A stretch of 64,000 bases of DNA, from contig NZ_AUNE01000009.1 in the NCBI RefSeq assembly GCF_000447755.1, positions 62,001 to 126,000 of the forward strand, given 5' to 3'. The notes beneath the pieces were generated by a model that did no database searches, was not told the origin of the DNA, and saw nothing but the letters and a program-made list of their open reading frames with translations. This stretch comes from Bacteriovorax sp. BSW11_IV. Lineage in GTDB: Bacteria; Bdellovibrionota; Bacteriovoracia; Bacteriovoracales; Bacteriovoracaceae. The position numbers and the translations under genes are program-made. Positions 38,833 through 46,998 of this stretch are shown one piece after another (positions within the stretch are counted from its first letter, which is position 1; each line of letters begins with the position of its first letter).

Positions 38833-40776
38833 ATGGCATTTGACTACGATAAGGCAAAAAGAAAGGCATCTGACTCGTCAGATCACTGGACTTCAAACTC
38901 CGACCTTTTTATGGTTTTGTCAGTTGTATTCTTACTTCTATATGTCGTTGCAAGTGTAAGAAATGGAACGAGCAATATTACACAGGCCGTGCAACTGCAA
39001 CAGATAGCAAGTCAGAAAGAAGATCTTCAAAGACAGTTGCGTGCATACAATGCTTTAAAGAATGAGGCCCTCGAAAAAGACTCTAGTGAAGAAGAAGTGA
39101 AGATGTATCAAGAACTAATGTCAAAACTTGATCTCTTACAAGATGAGACAGATAAGGAAAGAAAAGATCTAGAAAATCAAGCGAAGGCCAATGCTGATAA
39201 AGTCGAAGCACTTAATCAGTACCAACAAATGGTTCGTAATATCATTAATACAAATTTACTCGCTAAGAAAAGAATTGAAAGAAGAGACAAAGTTATTGTT
39301 GAGAAAAAAGAAATTATTACTGAGCAGGTTCAAACGATTAAAGGCCTTGATGAAACAATTCAAGAACAAGCTCAAGATATTGAGGAAAAGGCCAACGTTA
39401 TCGGCCAGAAAGAGCAGTTAATAAGTAAGCAAAATGAAGAAATTGAAGAAAAAGAGAAAGAAATCGCAGAAAGAAAAGTTGCGATTAAAAATTTAGAATC
39501 TGAAGTTGATCAGAAAAAAGAAGTCCTCGCTAAAAATGCACAAAGGATAGATGACTTAAATAGTAAACTTGATGGCAAAATCGTAGAACTTCAAGAACAG
39601 TATAAGAAACAAAATAAAACGGAAGCTGAAATGAGACAGGCCGTTTTAAAACTCAGATTAGCAAGTCGTAATGAAGTTAAAAAACTTAAAGAAGAAAAAG
39701 ATCAAGTTGCAAGTCGTTTGACTAATTTGAACGAGAAACTAGAAGCTGCCAATGTTGAGCTTTCAAGTGCGAGTCGTAAAATCGAAGAACAAGAAAATAG
39801 AAAAGAACAACTTGAAAATGAATTAAAGCAAGCTGAAATCAGCTATCAAAAACAGATGAAAGATCTTGAGAGCGACTTTAATAGTAAAGTGGCATCACAG
39901 AGGGAAGCGCTTGAATCTAAGTTGAATCAAGAAAAAGCAAGCGCTAAAGAGAAGGCCCAGAAGCTTGCAGAATTCAAAGAACAAGCAGCAAAAGAAAGAG
40001 AAAATCTTCAAAGTGCTCTTGGTGAACTGCAAGGGAAAGTTTCAAAAGTTAAAGGTGACTTAAAAGAAATGAGCGAGAAAGCTAAAGAATATGCTGATAA
40101 GCTTGCTGATGCAAAAAAAGATCATGCGAACTATCTTGCTTCTATTTCGCAGCTGAAGTCTGATAAGGAAAACTTATCAGGCGATTTGGAACGAGTTAAA
40201 AAAATTGCGAATGCTAAAAAAGATCTTGCCAATAAAATTGCTGCCAACTTGAAAAAACAAGGTGTGAAAGCAAACGTAGATCCAAAATCAGGTGACGTTA
40301 CTCTTTCATTTGGGGATGAATACTTTGATTCTGGACGTGCCGATTTAAAAGCAAATATGCAAAAGACACTACAGAAGTTCATTCCTGAATATGCCAAGTC
40401 TCTTCTTGAAAATGATGAAATTGCAAAACAGGTTCAGTCTGTAGAAATCGTGGGTTTTTCATCTCCAACTTATAAAGGGAAGTACATTGATCCTCAAAGT
40501 TTAAAGGCTGAGGATAGAGCGGCCCTGAATTATAATTTGGATTTGTCATTTAAAAGAGCAAAGGCAATCTTCACATATATGACTGATACAGAAAAAATGA
40601 ATTATACCTATCAGAAAAAGATTCAACCTTTAATTAAAGTTACAGGTCGAAGTTATCTTGCTGATGGTGTCCAAGGACGAGGAATTGCTTCTGGTATTTC
40701 TCGTAAAGAATATTGCTCAAAATATGATTGTGATAAATCTCAAAAAGTTATCGTTAGATTTAACTTAAAGGACTAA
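38833..40776 (+). CDS. MotB/OmpA-like stator subunit with a very long coiled coil
   Basis: 647 aa. A short basic cytoplasmic N-terminus is followed by a single TM (~25-43: LFMVLSVVFLLLYVVAS) entered by D24, the position of the proton-binding Asp in MotB/ExbD/TolR. Then comes ~420 residues of heptad-like, Glu/Lys/Gln-rich coiled coil (about 50-475). A C-terminal OmpA/MotB-like peptidoglycan-binding domain (~485-647) has DVTLSFGDEYFDSGRADL, VEIVGFSSP and LDLSFKRAKAIFTYM. Ordinary MotB has only a short plug and linker between TM and OmpA domain, so this insert is exceptional. The MotA-like gene follows 6 bp later. By analogy the pair is an ion-driven stator; what it drives is unknown. Confidence 0.8.
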   Translation: MAFDYDKAKRKASDSSDHWTSNSDLFMVLSVVFLLLYVVASVRNGTSNITQAVQLQQIASQKEDLQRQLRAYNALKNEALEKDSSEEEVKMYQELMSKLDLLQDETDKERKDLENQAKANADKVEALNQYQQMVRNIINTNLLAKKRIERRDKVIVEKKEIITEQVQTIKGLDETIQEQAQDIEEKANVIGQKEQLISKQNEEIEEKEKEIAERKVAIKNLESEVDQKKEVLAKNAQRIDDLNSKLDGKIVELQEQYKKQNKTEAEMRQAVLKLRLASRNEVKKLKEEKDQVASRLTNLNEKLEAANVELSSASRKIEEQENRKEQLENELKQAEISYQKQMKDLESDFNSKVASQREALESKLNQEKASAKEKAQKLAEFKEQAAKERENLQSALGELQGKVSKVKGDLKEMSEKAKEYADKLADAKKDHANYLASISQLKSDKENLSGDLERVKKIANAKKDLANKIAANLKKQGVKANVDPKSGDVTLSFGDEYFDSGRADLKANMQKTLQKFIPEYAKSLLENDEIAKQVQSVEIVGFSSPTYKGKYIDPQSLKAEDRAALNYNLDLSFKRAKAIFTYMTDTEKMNYTYQKKIQPLIKVTGRSYLADGVQGRGIASGISRKEYCSKYDCDKSQKVIVRFNLKD

Positions 40777-40782
40777 TATACC

Positions 40783-41883
40783 ATGGGACTACAAGAATTG
40801 ATTCAACAGATGATTGATGGGCTGGTAGCATTTTCTACCGATTTATTACTGCCTTTCATGGCCTTAACATTTCTCTTTGGGGTGACCATGAGATGTCTTA
40901 TTTGGTGGACTCTCAGAAGAGAATATTGGTTTGCAGAGGAATTTCAAAAAAGGGTGTTACGCTTTATCAATAGTGCAGATGATGACAAAGAGCTATCGTT
41001 CTATGTTGTTACAAAAAGGCTGTTAGAAATTACATTTTATGAGGCCTTTGAAATCCGCTCTATTATGAAAAGACGTAATCCAGATGCCATCATGACATGG
41101 GCAGATAGACTCTTTTTAATTCAGCAGGGTGCCGCGAAAATTGTTAACGATACTCTTAAGCAAATTCGTTATATCAAATACGACCGTGAAAAACCTCGTT
41201 TTCTTGAAATAAGTAAAACTGTATTTCAGAACAACCCATGTTTTAATAAAGTTTTTGGTATTATTCCAATTTCAGCTTTCAATGAGTTTTTAAATATTTT
41301 ACCCAATCTTTTTATTGTAGGAGGTATCTTTGGTACTTTCCTAGGAATCATGAAGGCCCTTCCAGAGCTTGGTGGGATGGATCTTGCTGATGTTGAAAAT
41401 AGTCGTGTTGTAATGGATACATTCTTATTGAAAATTTCGTTTTCAATGTCGACTTCAATCATTGGTATTGTCTTGTCTGTTTCAATGACTTTTATGAATA
41501 CATTTTTAAATGCAGAGAAATTATTCATCAACACTGTAGAAGGTTTCGATAACAATCTTAGTATTCTTTGGACAAGATGCTCTCATAACACTTTACCTAA
41601 AAATATTGAAGACTTTGATGAAAATAGAGACCCAATCGAGGTTTTGGCCGAAGATGTAGTTACAAGAGAGTTACAAGTAGAAACAGGTTTTGTACATCTT
41701 AAAAAGCCAATTCAAGGTTGGTGGTTAAAAGACAAAAAAGGGCAGAGACCAGTTCTTGCTGATGAAGAAAAAGAAAAAATTATAAAAGAATACGAAAGTA
41801 CAAAAGAGAATAAGAATCATGATCTTCGTGAAAGTGTTAATGAACAAGAAGAACATGTTGAAAGTGATGAGAAAGTTGCTTAA
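40783..41883 (+). CDS. MotA/TolQ/ExbB-like proton-channel subunit
   Basis: 366 aa. TM1 ~19-41 (LLLPFMALTFLFGVTMRCLIWW), a cytoplasmic section of ~125 residues, TM2 ~171-192 (PNLFIVGGIFGTFLGIM), TM3 ~217-241 (KISFSMSTSIIGIVLSVSMTFM) and a charged ~120-residue C-tail. GxFGTFLGIM and the Ser/Thr of SMSTSIIG are the MotA/TolQ/ExbB signature and look most like the ZorA branch. Three rather than four TMs fits the TolQ/ExbB/ZorA topology. SD AAGGA upstream. Expected to form a pentameric ring around dimers of the upstream MotB-like protein (family knowledge). Confidence 0.82.
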   Translation: MGLQELIQQMIDGLVAFSTDLLLPFMALTFLFGVTMRCLIWWTLRREYWFAEEFQKRVLRFINSADDDKELSFYVVTKRLLEITFYEAFEIRSIMKRRNPDAIMTWADRLFLIQQGAAKIVNDTLKQIRYIKYDREKPRFLEISKTVFQNNPCFNKVFGIIPISAFNEFLNILPNLFIVGGIFGTFLGIMKALPELGGMDLADVENSRVVMDTFLLKISFSMSTSIIGIVLSVSMTFMNTFLNAEKLFINTVEGFDNNLSILWTRCSHNTLPKNIEDFDENRDPIEVLAEDVVTRELQVETGFVHLKKPIQGWWLKDKKGQRPVLADEEKEKIIKEYESTKENKNHDLRESVNEQEEHVESDEKVA

Positions 41884-41906
41884 TTAAGCTTTGCAAAGGA
41901 TGAACT

Positions 41907-44744
41907 TTGGGACAGCAAAAGTTAAAACCATATAGGCTTGTTTCGGATGAAAATGACCAATTAGATCATGAGCTTTTGCCTCATATTCCATCTGATAACT
42001 ACAGAACAAGTTCATCTTTAGAAGAGAGCTATGGTGAATTGAAGAGAATTCGCAAAAGCTTGGAAAAGGAAGAGGGACGTAAAAGCGACCTCCATCTTGA
42101 TCTTGATAAGATTCGTCGCAGTATTGGGCAAAAACGATCTGAATTAAAAATATTAAACGAAAAGAGTAATGCTCAAAATATAGAGTTTTTGAAAATTAAG
42201 AGACTGATAAATGATGAGAGGACTCAGCTTCAGGAGATAAATGAAAAGAAGAATTTATTAAAGGAAGAGCTTGAGAGAATCTCTTTCGATAAAAATGATA
42301 AAGAAACTAAGCTGGGACAACTTAATCTTAGAATCCAGAAATCTGAAGAAGATTATAAAATTAATTTAAATAAACTGAATATAATTGAAGAGCAAAAGAA
42401 ACAGGCCATATCTGAGGCACAGGCGTTAAATAGGGATCTTGACGTCCAAAAGAAGATGTTCACGAACGATTTTGAAACGTTGAAAAGCTCTTTTGATTTT
42501 AAAATTGAGAAATTGGATACTGAATATAAAGAATTAACATATAAAATTTCTGAGAGTAAAAAATATCTAGATGGATTAATCGGTAAGGCGAATGTTTACG
42601 AATCAGAAATAAAAACGTTGTTGAAAAATCAAGAAGGACTAGAAAATTCTAATAACTTAATTCTAGAAACTCAGAATGAGAAAAGACGAAATGTACAAAA
42701 ACTTGAGGATCAAATTGAAAAATCTCAAGGACAACTTCTTTTGTTAAATTCGGAAATAGATGATTTATTGTCGAAAAAGACTGCACTGGGTCAGACTTTG
42801 AAAAATCTGGAATTTGAAGAGGAAAAGCAAAGAAAAAGATTGGCGGAAGAAGAAAAGAAAATTGCAATGGAGCTTGAGTTGCAAAAACTTCGTCATGATT
42901 ATGAGATCGAAAGTCGAATGGAAAATCTTGAGAGAACGCTAAAAGAGAATGAAAAGAATTGGTATAGCGAATTTGAGAGAAGAAAAAGTGCGCTTGAAAG
43001 TGATTACCAGGGACAAAAAAACTATTTAGAGAAAAAACATATAGAAAAGATTTCAGAATTAGAAAGAAAGCAAAATGATATTGTTGATAAGGCCAACAAA
43101 GAGGCCCAGAGAATAATTATAAACTCTCAACAGTTGGCCTTAGAGAAAGAGGCCAAAATTCAAGAAATGTATGTTCGCGCTGGTGAGATTAAGTTAGAGG
43201 CGCAGACTGAAGTCGCTCAAAAAATTGAAGAGGCAAATCGGATCTTTGATGAAAGACGAGGAGAGTCGAATGCGTTACTAGCAAGAGCGCAGGAAGAGTA
43301 TAGAAAGAAATGCAAAGAAGCAGAAACAATAATAAATAGTGCAAAGACCCGTGGTAATGCAATTTTGCAAAAATCAGAAATTCAAAAAAATGAGATCTTA
43401 AAAGAAGCGATTAATGATCGTCATGCTCATGAAAAGAGACTTAGAGATATTGAGCAATCATTTGAAAATGAGTTTAATGAGCAAAAGTATAAATTAAAAA
43501 ACTATATTGCGTATAGAAAAGAAAAAGCAAGAATTGCTAGAGCAAAAAGTATTGATAATGAAAAAGCTAGGATTGAAAAAACTCAAAAACACGCTTTAAT
43601 GAATGTTGAAAAAATGAAAAGGAATGAGTTTAAAAGAATAGCTAAAAAGAGAAATGAAATTTTATATAAAGCTACAGAAGATCTGATCTCTCAAAAGAAT
43701 AAGCTAAGAGAAATGAAAAAGACTGAATTAGAATCGTTCTATAGTGAACGATCTAACTTAATGAGAGAAGCAGAAGAATATAAAAGACAAAAAGAAAAAG
43801 AAGTACATGAGTGGCAACAAGAACAGAGAGACTTAATTGAACAGTTAAAACGAAATCAGATTGAAGAACTTAATATTAAAAAAATGGATTTCGAAAAAGA
43901 GTTCGAGAACAAAATTGGACGAGAGAAAAAAGAATTTGAAAATTTGAAGTCGAAAAAAATCGAACATGTTCATAACTGTGTTTATAATTATATTATCAAC
44001 GAACTCCAAGGGGAACTTAAAGAAATAGATATCGAAAAGAAAAAAGAGATCAAGGCCGGTATCCACGATGTTCTTAAGTCTTCACTAAGTAATGATCCAA
44101 AGAAAATGGCCCGAAGTGCGGGGTTGGAAGTAGACACTAATCAACAAAAAAGTATTGGCAAAATTTTTGTTAAATATTCATCAAGAGTGCTTCCTGTCGC
44201 TTTACTAGGGCTTGTCGCATTCTTTGACTTAGCTGGAATTAGAACAACAACCAAAAATACGATTATGACCTTTCTTGAAAACCGACGCGCAGAGGCCCAA
44301 GTGGTGCAAGATAAAAAGGTGCAAGATTTACAAGAAGTGAGAATCTATAAACCGGATCAAACTCCAGGTTATAAAGTAACATATACTGATAATGTTATCT
44401 TCACTCCAAAATTTCACAGTACGTATGAGAGTGATACTTTTCAGAATGAGTGGATTTTAAGTGTTCATGAATTTATGCTTAGTGAGTTGGAACTTTCGGA
44501 AGAATTTGCCATTAACTTTGTATCTTCAGAGGGGACACTTATTAAAGAGCTTTCAAAGATGAGAAGTGAGCTTGATCCGCGCTTTTTAGAAAGAGGTGTT
44601 GAAAAAATGAGATTAAGGGAGCAGGAATTTATAAACTGGGCGAATCAAGGTTTTGTTAATCAGGAAAACTCAGATAAATTTAATGCTTTTAAGATGAAAT
44701 TTTACGAAGACTTTGTTGTATCAAAGGGGAGCTCGATTGAGTAA
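41907..44744 (+). CDS. Giant coiled-coil inner-membrane protein
   Basis: 945 aa from TTG 41907, which has AAAGGA 6 nt upstream; the ATG at 41900 opens only a short frame. Residues ~35-730 are almost continuous, highly charged coiled coil, followed by a single TM (~760-778: VLPVALLGLVAFFDLAGI) and a ~165-residue C-terminal domain that would lie in the periplasm. The N-terminal coil would be cytoplasmic, on the order of 100 nm if fully extended (0.15 nm per residue). It has no Walker motif, so it is not SMC/Rad50. It starts 23 bp after the MotA-like gene and is followed by a terminator, so the three genes form one operon. It may be a separate cytoplasmic tail or scaffold for the stator (inference). 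Confidence 0.75.
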   Translation: MGQQKLKPYRLVSDENDQLDHELLPHIPSDNYRTSSSLEESYGELKRIRKSLEKEEGRKSDLHLDLDKIRRSIGQKRSELKILNEKSNAQNIEFLKIKRLINDERTQLQEINEKKNLLKEELERISFDKNDKETKLGQLNLRIQKSEEDYKINLNKLNIIEEQKKQAISEAQALNRDLDVQKKMFTNDFETLKSSFDFKIEKLDTEYKELTYKISESKKYLDGLIGKANVYESEIKTLLKNQEGLENSNNLILETQNEKRRNVQKLEDQIEKSQGQLLLLNSEIDDLLSKKTALGQTLKNLEFEEEKQRKRLAEEEKKIAMELELQKLRHDYEIESRMENLERTLKENEKNWYSEFERRKSALESDYQGQKNYLEKKHIEKISELERKQNDIVDKANKEAQRIIINSQQLALEKEAKIQEMYVRAGEIKLEAQTEVAQKIEEANRIFDERRGESNALLARAQEEYRKKCKEAETIINSAKTRGNAILQKSEIQKNEILKEAINDRHAHEKRLRDIEQSFENEFNEQKYKLKNYIAYRKEKARIARAKSIDNEKARIEKTQKHALMNVEKMKRNEFKRIAKKRNEILYKATEDLISQKNKLREMKKTELESFYSERSNLMREAEEYKRQKEKEVHEWQQEQRDLIEQLKRNQIEELNIKKMDFEKEFENKIGREKKEFENLKSKKIEHVHNCVYNYIINELQGELKEIDIEKKKEIKAGIHDVLKSSLSNDPKKMARSAGLEVDTNQQKSIGKIFVKYSSRVLPVALLGLVAFFDLAGIRTTTKNTIMTFLENRRAEAQVVQDKKVQDLQEVRIYKPDQTPGYKVTYTDNVIFTPKFHSTYESDTFQNEWILSVHEFMLSELELSEEFAINFVSSEGTLIKELSKMRSELDPRFLERGVEKMRLREQEFINWANQGFVNQENSDKFNAFKMKFYEDFVVSKGSSIE

Positions 44745-44835: not shown

Positions 44836-44861
44836 GGCCCTCTAAACGGAGGGCCTTTTTT
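44836..44861 (+). terminator. Rho-independent terminator of the stator-like operon
   Basis: A 7-bp stem GGCCCTC / GAGGGCC (44836-44842 with 44849-44855), a 6-nt loop and six T residues. It ends exactly one base before the ATG of the next reading frame. Confidence 0.85.
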
Positions 44862-46136
44862 ATGAATACAATTATGAAACGATCTCAATCTAGTGAACCT
44901 ATCGCCAAAGGTGGTTTACGTTTTTATGATAAGATGATTATTACACCGGCCTTTGGTCGAAAGAAAGAAATTAGACTTAATCGTACCAAATTTGAAATAA
45001 AGACCTCTCAAGAAGAAACAAAATTTTTGAATAGTTCAATTTCTCTGAAACAAATAGGCAATGAACTTTATGAGTTTGATCTAGAACTTATAAATGATTA
45101 TTCAACAAAATCCTCGGAAGATGCTGGACGATATTTGCTTAGAGTAAAAAGTGAAAAGGCGATTTGACATAATGGAAATTATGTTTTTGAAGCATTTCTC
45201 AAAAGAGGGGATGAAATACATTTTCAATATAATAAAATTACTTTTCAGGATGATTCTGAAGAGCATAATGAAGATTTGCCTTTTAATAAAAATATTATTG
45301 AAAGTAATGTCTCATTACTTCTTGAGGGGGAAACGGGAACTGGTAAGTCTTTTTTGGCCAAGAAAATACATGAAAATAGCAATCTTCTAGGACCTTTCAT
45401 CCATGTGAACTTATCATCTTTTTCATTATCGTTGATTGAAAGTGAGCTCTTTGGGCATTCGAAAGGGGCCTTTACAGGAGCAGTTACTGATAAGATTGGA
45501 GCACTAAGGGAGGCGAACCGAGGGACATTGTTTTTGGATGAGATTGATTCTCTGCCAATTGAAGTTCAAACAAAACTATTGCTCTTTCTTGATTCTGGCC
45601 TAGTCCGTCCAGTTGGAGCAATGAAAGAATATGAAAGTCAGGTTCGTCTCATCTGTGCTTCAGGACAAAATTTAAAAAAACTTGTGGAGCAAGGAAAGAT
45701 GAGAAAAGATTTCTTTTTTAGAATTAGTTCTGGATTCCAATATAGCTTGGCTCCACTACGAAAAGAAAAAGAAAAAATCGCTCAAGTTTGCATGTCCTTT
45801 GCCCAGGACAATAATATACAAGTTGAAAGTAAACTCATTCATTATTATCAAAACTGTGAATGGCCAGGTAATATTCGTCAGCTTATTGGGCATTTACGAA
45901 AAAAAACGATTTCAACCAAGGGAAGAGTTCTTTACTTTGATGAAATAGATCAAAGTCTTGGTCACGATATCGCTGTTAGCAATGAGATTCTTGGAGGAGT
46001 AAAAACACTTAAAGAAGTTCAAACTCAGTATTGTCTTCGTGTTTTTCATGAATGTGGGGAAAAGGTATCAGAGGGGGCCCGGATTCTTGGAATTACTCCT
46101 GCGACCTTGAGAAGCTATTTACGTCAAATTAATTAG
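44862..46136 (+). pseudogene. Sigma-54 activator with FHA-like N-terminus, interrupted by an in-frame TGA
   Basis: One frame of 424 codons is broken only by TGA at 45165-45167 (codon 102). Before it is an FHA-like beta domain (KEIRLNRTKFEIKTS, YEFDLELINDY). After it the same frame continues with the FHA tail pattern (HNGNYVFEAFLKRGDEIHF), then the AAA+ core: Walker A GETGTGKS, GAFTGA loop, LFLDEID, RKDFFFRI, CEWPGNIRQL. A Fis-type HTH follows (VSEGARILGITPATLRSYL). The bases are TGA where a TGG (Trp) or CGA (Arg) would restore the domain. Options: recent nonsense mutation, readthrough, base-calling error, or re-initiation (only a TTG at 45276). The ATG has no SD and abuts a terminator. Confidence 0.75.
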
Positions 46137-46998
46137 CAAGAAGAGAATGAATGTAAACGTCTTCAACTTCGCCTTTAATCTGAAGGTCTTTAATGAGGGC
46201 GTTTACTTCTTTTTTGATTTTATTCTTTATAATTGTTTTACCTTCTTCTTCCAGTGAAAAATCCGTTAAGAAGGGCTGTACAGTAGAGCTGAGACGATCC
46301 CTTAGAAGGGTTTCATTATTCATATCAAAGAAATATTCACGAATATATCTATTTGAAGAAATGATGGTAAAGTCCATAATCAATGTGTTGAGATGCTTTT
46401 GCGATTCTACATAAACAGGCATTTGTACATTGCCTAGTCTTAAGCTTCTCTGATCAATTAAGTGAAGATCTCCTCCACGCTTTTGAACATACTTTGAGAT
46501 GACACTGGCCGGAATACGTTCAGCTTCTGTTGTTTTTTCAACAATACTCTTCGATTGAGTATAGACAGTAATTCCTGTTAAGCTTGTGGCCGCACCGGCG
46601 ACAATAAAGCTCACAACGGTCATAGGCTTAAGCGATAGATACCACATTTTTAATTTGAGAAGCCTTGGTCCAAAGAGGGCCAATAAAATTACCCCAATTT
46701 TTTTTAGGTCTATTGATTTCCAATCGAAGCTCTTTGCTTTGCGGGCCTTTTGTGATGCTTGCTCAATTTTTTGTTTGGCAAGTTTTGTTGAATTGTGTGC
46801 AAGTTTATTTGCTTTTTCTTTGGTCTTATCAAGCTGACCACGCAAATTCGATTTGGTATTAGAAGCAACTTTTTTGCTTTCGCGAATTGTTGTTTTGATT
46901 TTAGAAGGAGTTAATTTTTTGATAAATGAACCAAGAAGAGCAAAAAATGTTCCCAAAATATTATTGATAATTTTTTCAATTTTTAGCCACAAGTTCAA
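46129..46998 (-). CDS. FliL-like membrane protein
   Basis: 289 aa from TTG 46998, supported by AGGAGG about 6 nt upstream. A basic, helical N-terminal half (KIKTTIRESKKVASN to QKARKAKS) precedes a TM at ~126-146 (MTVVSFIVAGAATSLTGITVY). A C-terminal domain (~185-289) matches the FliL pattern: VYVESQKHLNTLIMDFTIISSN, then LLRDRLSSTVQPFLTDFSLEEEGK, then EVNALIKDLQIKGEVEDVYIHSLL. FliL binds flagellar stators. The gene lies head-on to the sigma-54 activator (8-bp overlap) and within 1.4 kb of the MotA/MotB-like operon, a telling neighbourhood. No other flagellar gene is in the window. Confidence 0.62.
   Translation of the reverse strand: MNLWLKIEKIINNILGTFFALLGSFIKKLTPSKIKTTIRESKKVASNTKSNLRGQLDKTKEKANKLAHNSTKLAKQKIEQASQKARKAKSFDWKSIDLKKIGVILLALFGPRLLKLKMWYLSLKPMTVVSFIVAGAATSLTGITVYTQSKSIVEKTTEAERIPASVISKYVQKRGGDLHLIDQRSLRLGNVQMPVYVESQKHLNTLIMDFTIISSNRYIREYFFDMNNETLLRDRLSSTVQPFLTDFSLEEEGKTIIKNKIKKEVNALIKDLQIKGEVEDVYIHSLLAN

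Follow-up and report, generated by a model that had tools for sequence, protein, structure and literature searches.

A candidate peptidoglycan-anchored, ion-driven motor with its cytoplasmic rod on a separate membrane protein in Bdellovibrionota

The window analysed here is a stretch of 64,000 nucleotides from Bacteriovorax sp. BSW11_IV (NZ_AUNE01000009.1, positions 62,001 to 126,000 of the forward strand; coordinates below are those of the window). Three of its genes lie in the order B-A-C on the plus strand: B (38833–40776), encoding a MotB/ZorB-type subunit of 647 aa, A (40783–41883), encoding a ring subunit of 366 aa assigned to the ZorA/TolQ-like type by profile and fold search, and C (41907–44744), encoding a coiled-coil membrane protein of 945 aa that lacks a forkhead-associated (FHA) domain. 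The open reading frames were found where the initial annotation had placed a three-gene operon, with gaps of 6 bp between B and A and 23 bp between A and C, and the three genes are one tight operon. At its 3' end lies a terminator-like hairpin (44836–44855, plus strand; 8-bp stem with 6 G-C pairs, followed by T6), identified by consensus match alone. The DNA beyond it (44862–46136, plus strand) encodes a sigma-54 AAA activator, the upstream part of which may be a degenerate FHA-like sensor region; the frame is split by a single in-frame stop (45165–45167), possibly corresponding to a pseudogene or a sequencing error. Convergent to the operon is a gene for a protein of 289 aa (46129–46998, minus strand), which matches FliL weakly (Pfam 0.0022) and has an N-terminus that is long and helical. 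None of the neighbours in the window (EngB, the FliL-like protein, the sigma-54 activator and a 122-aa protein) recurs near the trio at other loci.

Subunit B starts with a transmembrane (TM) helix (residues 24–42; 38902–38958, plus strand) that has the putative ion-path aspartate, D24, at its beginning. This Asp, which had been predicted to be conserved, is invariant in all 41 homologues aligned. The helix is followed by a predicted periplasmic coiled coil (residues 53–478; 38989–40266, plus strand), the length of which, 426 residues, agrees with the linker of about 420 residues initially proposed; it contains no proline, 8 glycines and 40% charged residues, with a hydrophobic period of 3.5 residues and a heptad score of z = 6 against shuffled sequences. 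Among relatives this spacer of B ranges from 295 to 1548 residues. The proposed OmpA/MotB fold of the C-terminus was also borne out, as residues 497–589 (40321–40599, plus strand) form an OmpA-type peptidoglycan (PG)-binding domain, recognised by Pfam OmpA (1.6e-5, slightly under the gathering cut-off) and by the PADLOC ZorB1 model (8e-32). Residues N568, L571, S572 and R575 of this domain are invariant, as is the cysteine pair C628/C633, and the position of the PG-site histidine of ZorB is occupied by phenylalanine in 27 of 41 B proteins. The positive-inside rule gives no clear orientation for B. When fully extended (0.1485 nm per residue), the coil of the window B would measure about 63 nm, more than the periplasm can accommodate in an upright position; the coil must therefore be slanted, run along the wall or be folded back.

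Subunit A has three TMs (residues 14–32, 169–187 and 215–233). The segment from TM2 to TM3 (residues 169–233; 41287–41481, plus strand) carries T185 and S225, both invariant in 61 of 61 homologues and aligned with T147 and S184 of ZorA (8qyh). In the published ZorAB structures, the ZorB Asp is ringed by conserved Ser/Thr residues of ZorA (PMC11890865), and the TM Asp of B together with the Thr/Ser ring of A corresponds to the residue signature of the ion-driven 5:2 stators (MotAB, TolQR and ZorAB). Taken alone, A matched Pfam MotA_ExbB at only 0.009 and NCBIfam ZorA at 5e-6, the ZorA and ZorB family matches of A and B being under the NCBIfam curated cut-offs. A profile of 13 A proteins retrieved only ZorA chains from the PDB (best value 2e-8), with no flagellar MotA chain among the matches, and a fold search with the AF2 model of A returned ZorA (8qyk and 8qyd) as the closest structures, followed by TolQ/ExbB, with probabilities near 1, yet with E-values of 2e-3 and up. 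The earlier assignment of A as ZorA/TolQ-like rather than flagellar therefore stands. TolQR and ExbBD share the 3-TM type of A, but the B subunit of the trio is long and OmpA-type, in contrast to the short TolR/ExbD, and no TolA/TonB transducer was seen.

In the A proteins of both clades described below, an unalignable linker leads to a C-terminus of two small residues, the typical endings being -K-A-A and -K-A-S. A small-residue tail (DEKVA in the window; 41866–41880, plus strand) is present in 57 of 60 homologues versus 37 of 616 neighbour proteins (Fisher p 2e-33, without correction for kinship), and the strict A[AS] ending in 34 of 60 versus 8 of 616. The codons of the tail differ synonymously, so the constraint acts on the protein. 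Reasoning from ssrA-type signals, we suggest that the A tail may act as a ClpXP degron or as a peptide for docking.

Most of protein C is a predicted cytoplasmic coil (residues 36–735; 42012–44111, plus strand; z = 6.7, period of about 3.6), comprising 700 residues in the window and 420 to 1078 among relatives; the extended rod of the window C would be about 104 nm long (0.1485 nm per residue). A single TM (residues 760–778; 44184–44240, plus strand) follows, in accordance with the initial description of a coil of about 700 residues plus one TM, and its flanking charges indicate an N-in/C-out topology (mean flanking K/R of 4.9 versus 2.6 in 30 homologues). The conserved C-terminal, predicted periplasmic domain (44334–44741, plus strand) has about 165 residues and is all-helical in the AF2 model, with block means of 94–98 pLDDT over most of its length. 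It had no Pfam match, TonB-like domains included, and a fold search against the PDB gave no match to solved folds. An N-terminal FHA domain was detected in seven of the nine C-type third-gene proteins scanned (E-values of 5e-13 to 3e-15), and most sequences of a wider C alignment have the phosphothreonine-binding pattern (R, S-x-H, N-G-T), which is degenerate in L042 and L127. At L042 (8964–12236), the C gene is also broken by an in-frame stop at about 9935, and its FHA lacks the phosphothreonine-binding residues. The FHA domain is absent from the C proteins of the window and of L047, and the window C thus looks like a derived, FHA-less copy. Given this degeneration or loss in the window's lineage, phospho-input must be dispensable in that lineage. 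The suggestion that a ZorA-like tail could be a separate protein thus holds as regards a long coiled-coil TM partner, but it is only half the story, as C typically has an FHA-coil-TM-periplasmic domain architecture, and a signalling input to the motor through C is likely.

Of 369 Bdellovibrionota genomes, 184 contain subunit A and 135 contain the C-terminal domain of C. When the listed coordinates were paired, 114 of 139 C matches followed A on the same strand at a distance of less than 7 kb, and for A matches of at least 400 bits C was the next gene in 103 of 118 cases, most of the exceptions having C on another contig. The B-A-C order, with B homologues 5' of A at other loci, recurs among relatives, and the expected three-gene synteny is thus conserved in other Bdellovibrionota. 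The contig scan detects close relatives only, and the trio may also be present beyond this phylum. One Bdellovibrio-like genus, which we would guess to be Bdellovibrio itself, has both A and C in 20 of 24 genomes, and the trio has neighbours there that are common to three or four sampled loci; searches of plasmid and phage collections yielded no homologue of the trio. From this prevalence, the shared neighbours and the absence from plasmid and phage collections, the trio behaves as part of the core genome. The scope of the module had to be corrected accordingly: it is widespread in Bdellovibrionota, the Bdellovibrio-like genus among them, and the copy in the window is apparently derived. We found no description of the trio in the open-licence literature.

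The association of the three genes is not strict. A third gene is missing from some B-A pairs, C is located apart from A in a few genomes (G173 and G029), and it occurs without A at L146 and L147; C may therefore have a role of its own. Genes of the FHA-coil-TM (C) type distant from A-B pairs were observed at L146, L147 and L148 and at L141 and L142, the FHA sometimes being degenerate or absent, and G029 carries two stand-alone C-type genes plus a truncated form of 466 aa adjoining A. At L126 (4943–7402), an A-type channel domain lies within an open reading frame of 819 aa, with no B gene adjoining.

In the phylogeny of A, a sister clade (support 1.0), the sampled members of which all belong to the window's family, has C replaced by a protein of about 155 aa (D). 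The D protein of L053, the only one scanned, contains a cyclic nucleotide (cNMP)-binding domain (Pfam 1.6e-18) and showed no further confident domain and no recognised output domain. The remaining 13 D proteins align with it, with conservation of the FGE.VL..E..R.A motif, and 10 of the 14 have an A[AS] ending. These B-A-D modules (L050–L063) include B proteins of up to 1758 aa (L055). The composition of the trio as initially described is therefore not general, since the same motor is paired in this clade with a cNMP-binding protein instead of C. The FHA domain of C, together with a cNMP protein without recognised output domain, leads us to read the third protein as a regulator rather than as the output of the system.

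We consider it probable that the trio is a non-flagellar, PG-anchored, ion-driven motor, with its activity set by a cytoplasmic signalling partner and with C as a ZorA-like tail provided in trans. The anatomy of this motor, PG-anchored and ion-driven, with a long tether in the periplasm and C as a long arm on the cytoplasmic side, is well supported; the A5B2 stoichiometry, the rotation, the A-C contact and the direction of control are inferred. By comparison with ZorAB and MotAB, five A subunits would form a ring around two B TM helices (5:2), and the flow of protons or sodium past the B Asp and the Thr/Ser ring of A would turn A relative to B, which would be tethered to PG by the OmpA-type domain at the end of its coil. 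Protein C would be a single-pass membrane protein, its conserved domain lying in the periplasm and its rod of about 100 nm in the cytoplasm, and could act as the cytoplasmic arm of the motor; in ZorA this job falls to the C-terminal tail within one and the same polypeptide. Among most relatives the FHA domain would lie at the far end of this rod, where docking or gating of the motor would result when a Thr-phosphorylated protein binds, and in the sister clade the small cNMP-binding protein would take this regulatory place.

The nearest known relatives of A and B are ZorA and ZorB, A best matching ZorA in both sequence and fold and B having its best family match to ZorB. The trio shares with Zorya the TM Asp with a Thr/Ser ring, the OmpA-type PG-binding domain and a long cytoplasmic rod, C resembling the ZorA tail in trans. 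It might then be a Zorya-like envelope sensor, in which B senses PG deformation and A and C relay the signal into the cell to an effector bound by FHA, phages or other attackers being possible targets, and such a role would fit the published model of Zorya, according to which activation is triggered by PG (PMC11890865). However, the rod of the trio resides mainly in a separate membrane protein that has a TM and a periplasmic domain of its own, the B spacers have 295–1548 residues, and the core-genome distribution of the trio, with common neighbours in one genus, is unlike that of a patchy defence island. Furthermore, no PADLOC defence model, those for ZorC/D and ZorE-type effectors included, matched any of the ten flanking genes, in agreement with the initial annotation, and together with the lack of plasmid or phage homologues this makes an envelope sensor unlikely. 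A second candidate is a motor for gliding or invasion on the pattern of Agl-Glt, in which C would be a GltG-like adaptor passing force through the periplasm. AglR/Q/S and GltG likewise combine an ion-channel stator with a partner bearing an N-terminal FHA and one TM, GltG having an FHA-TM-periplasmic architecture and binding the TolQ-like AglR (PMC3169522), although this likeness concerns most C relatives and not the window copy. In addition, a 2026 review terms the motor of Bdellovibrio gliding unidentified (PMC13104615). In contrast to C, GltG has a mid-chain TM, a TonB-like C-terminus and no giant coil; the B of the trio is OmpA-type, the extra length of C is mostly cytoplasmic rather than periplasmic, and the same genome holds two apparent Agl-Glt clusters elsewhere. 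Homology of C to GltG was rejected, since their C-terminal regions show no detectable similarity (hhalign probability 0.2%), and an Agl-Glt-like motor seems distinctly improbable. These two apparent Agl-Glt cores of the window's own genome, L075 and L076, contain TolQ/TolR-like genes as well as GltG-like FHA-TM proteins, and the TolQ-like protein of L076 ends in KKAS. Bd0474 was also rejected as a known homologue: the published protein is of the dual-FHA/TPR kind, and its gene shares an operon with tadC, a type IVb pilus gene.

The MotAB-like parts of the trio, whose B resembles MotB in the N-terminal TM Asp and the C-terminal OmpA domain, and the presence of flagellin in 336 of 369 genomes could point to a flagellar stator, either accessory or alternative; in the C-less subclade, G354 and G355 (L131 and L130, one genus) have a flagellin gene about 650 bp from A. 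However, A has the three TMs of the ZorA/TolQ type rather than the four of MotA, the coiled coil that forms the linker of B is hundreds of residues long, and C occurs in only 135 genomes. The trio is also retained in G269 (97% complete) and G271 (99% complete), in which no flagellin was detected, and on the strength of these carriers we reject this highly improbable reading. Both flagellar use and Zorya-type defence are thus disfavoured, and for the PG-anchored, signal-controlled motor a constitutive role at the envelope or surface is more probable than one in swimming or in defence against phages, judging only from the distribution of the trio. More tentatively, and with considerable doubt, we suggest an undescribed, phylum-wide PG-anchored rotary motor with its rod on a separate membrane protein, switched by Thr phosphorylation through FHA or, in the sister clade, by cyclic nucleotides, and driving an envelope or surface process, possibly as the missing gliding/invasion motor.

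Few ion-driven stators are known, serving swimming, gliding and the type IX secretion system (T9SS), the Ton/Tol systems and Zorya. If our interpretation is correct, the trio would be another conserved kind of stator, in which a motor is tied to phospho- or cyclic-nucleotide signalling via a rod of about 100 nm, and in which the periplasmic coil of B exceeds the width of the periplasm. With the trio in 20 of 24 genomes of the Bdellovibrio-like genus, a role in predation, gliding or cell-wall growth would be directly testable by deletion.
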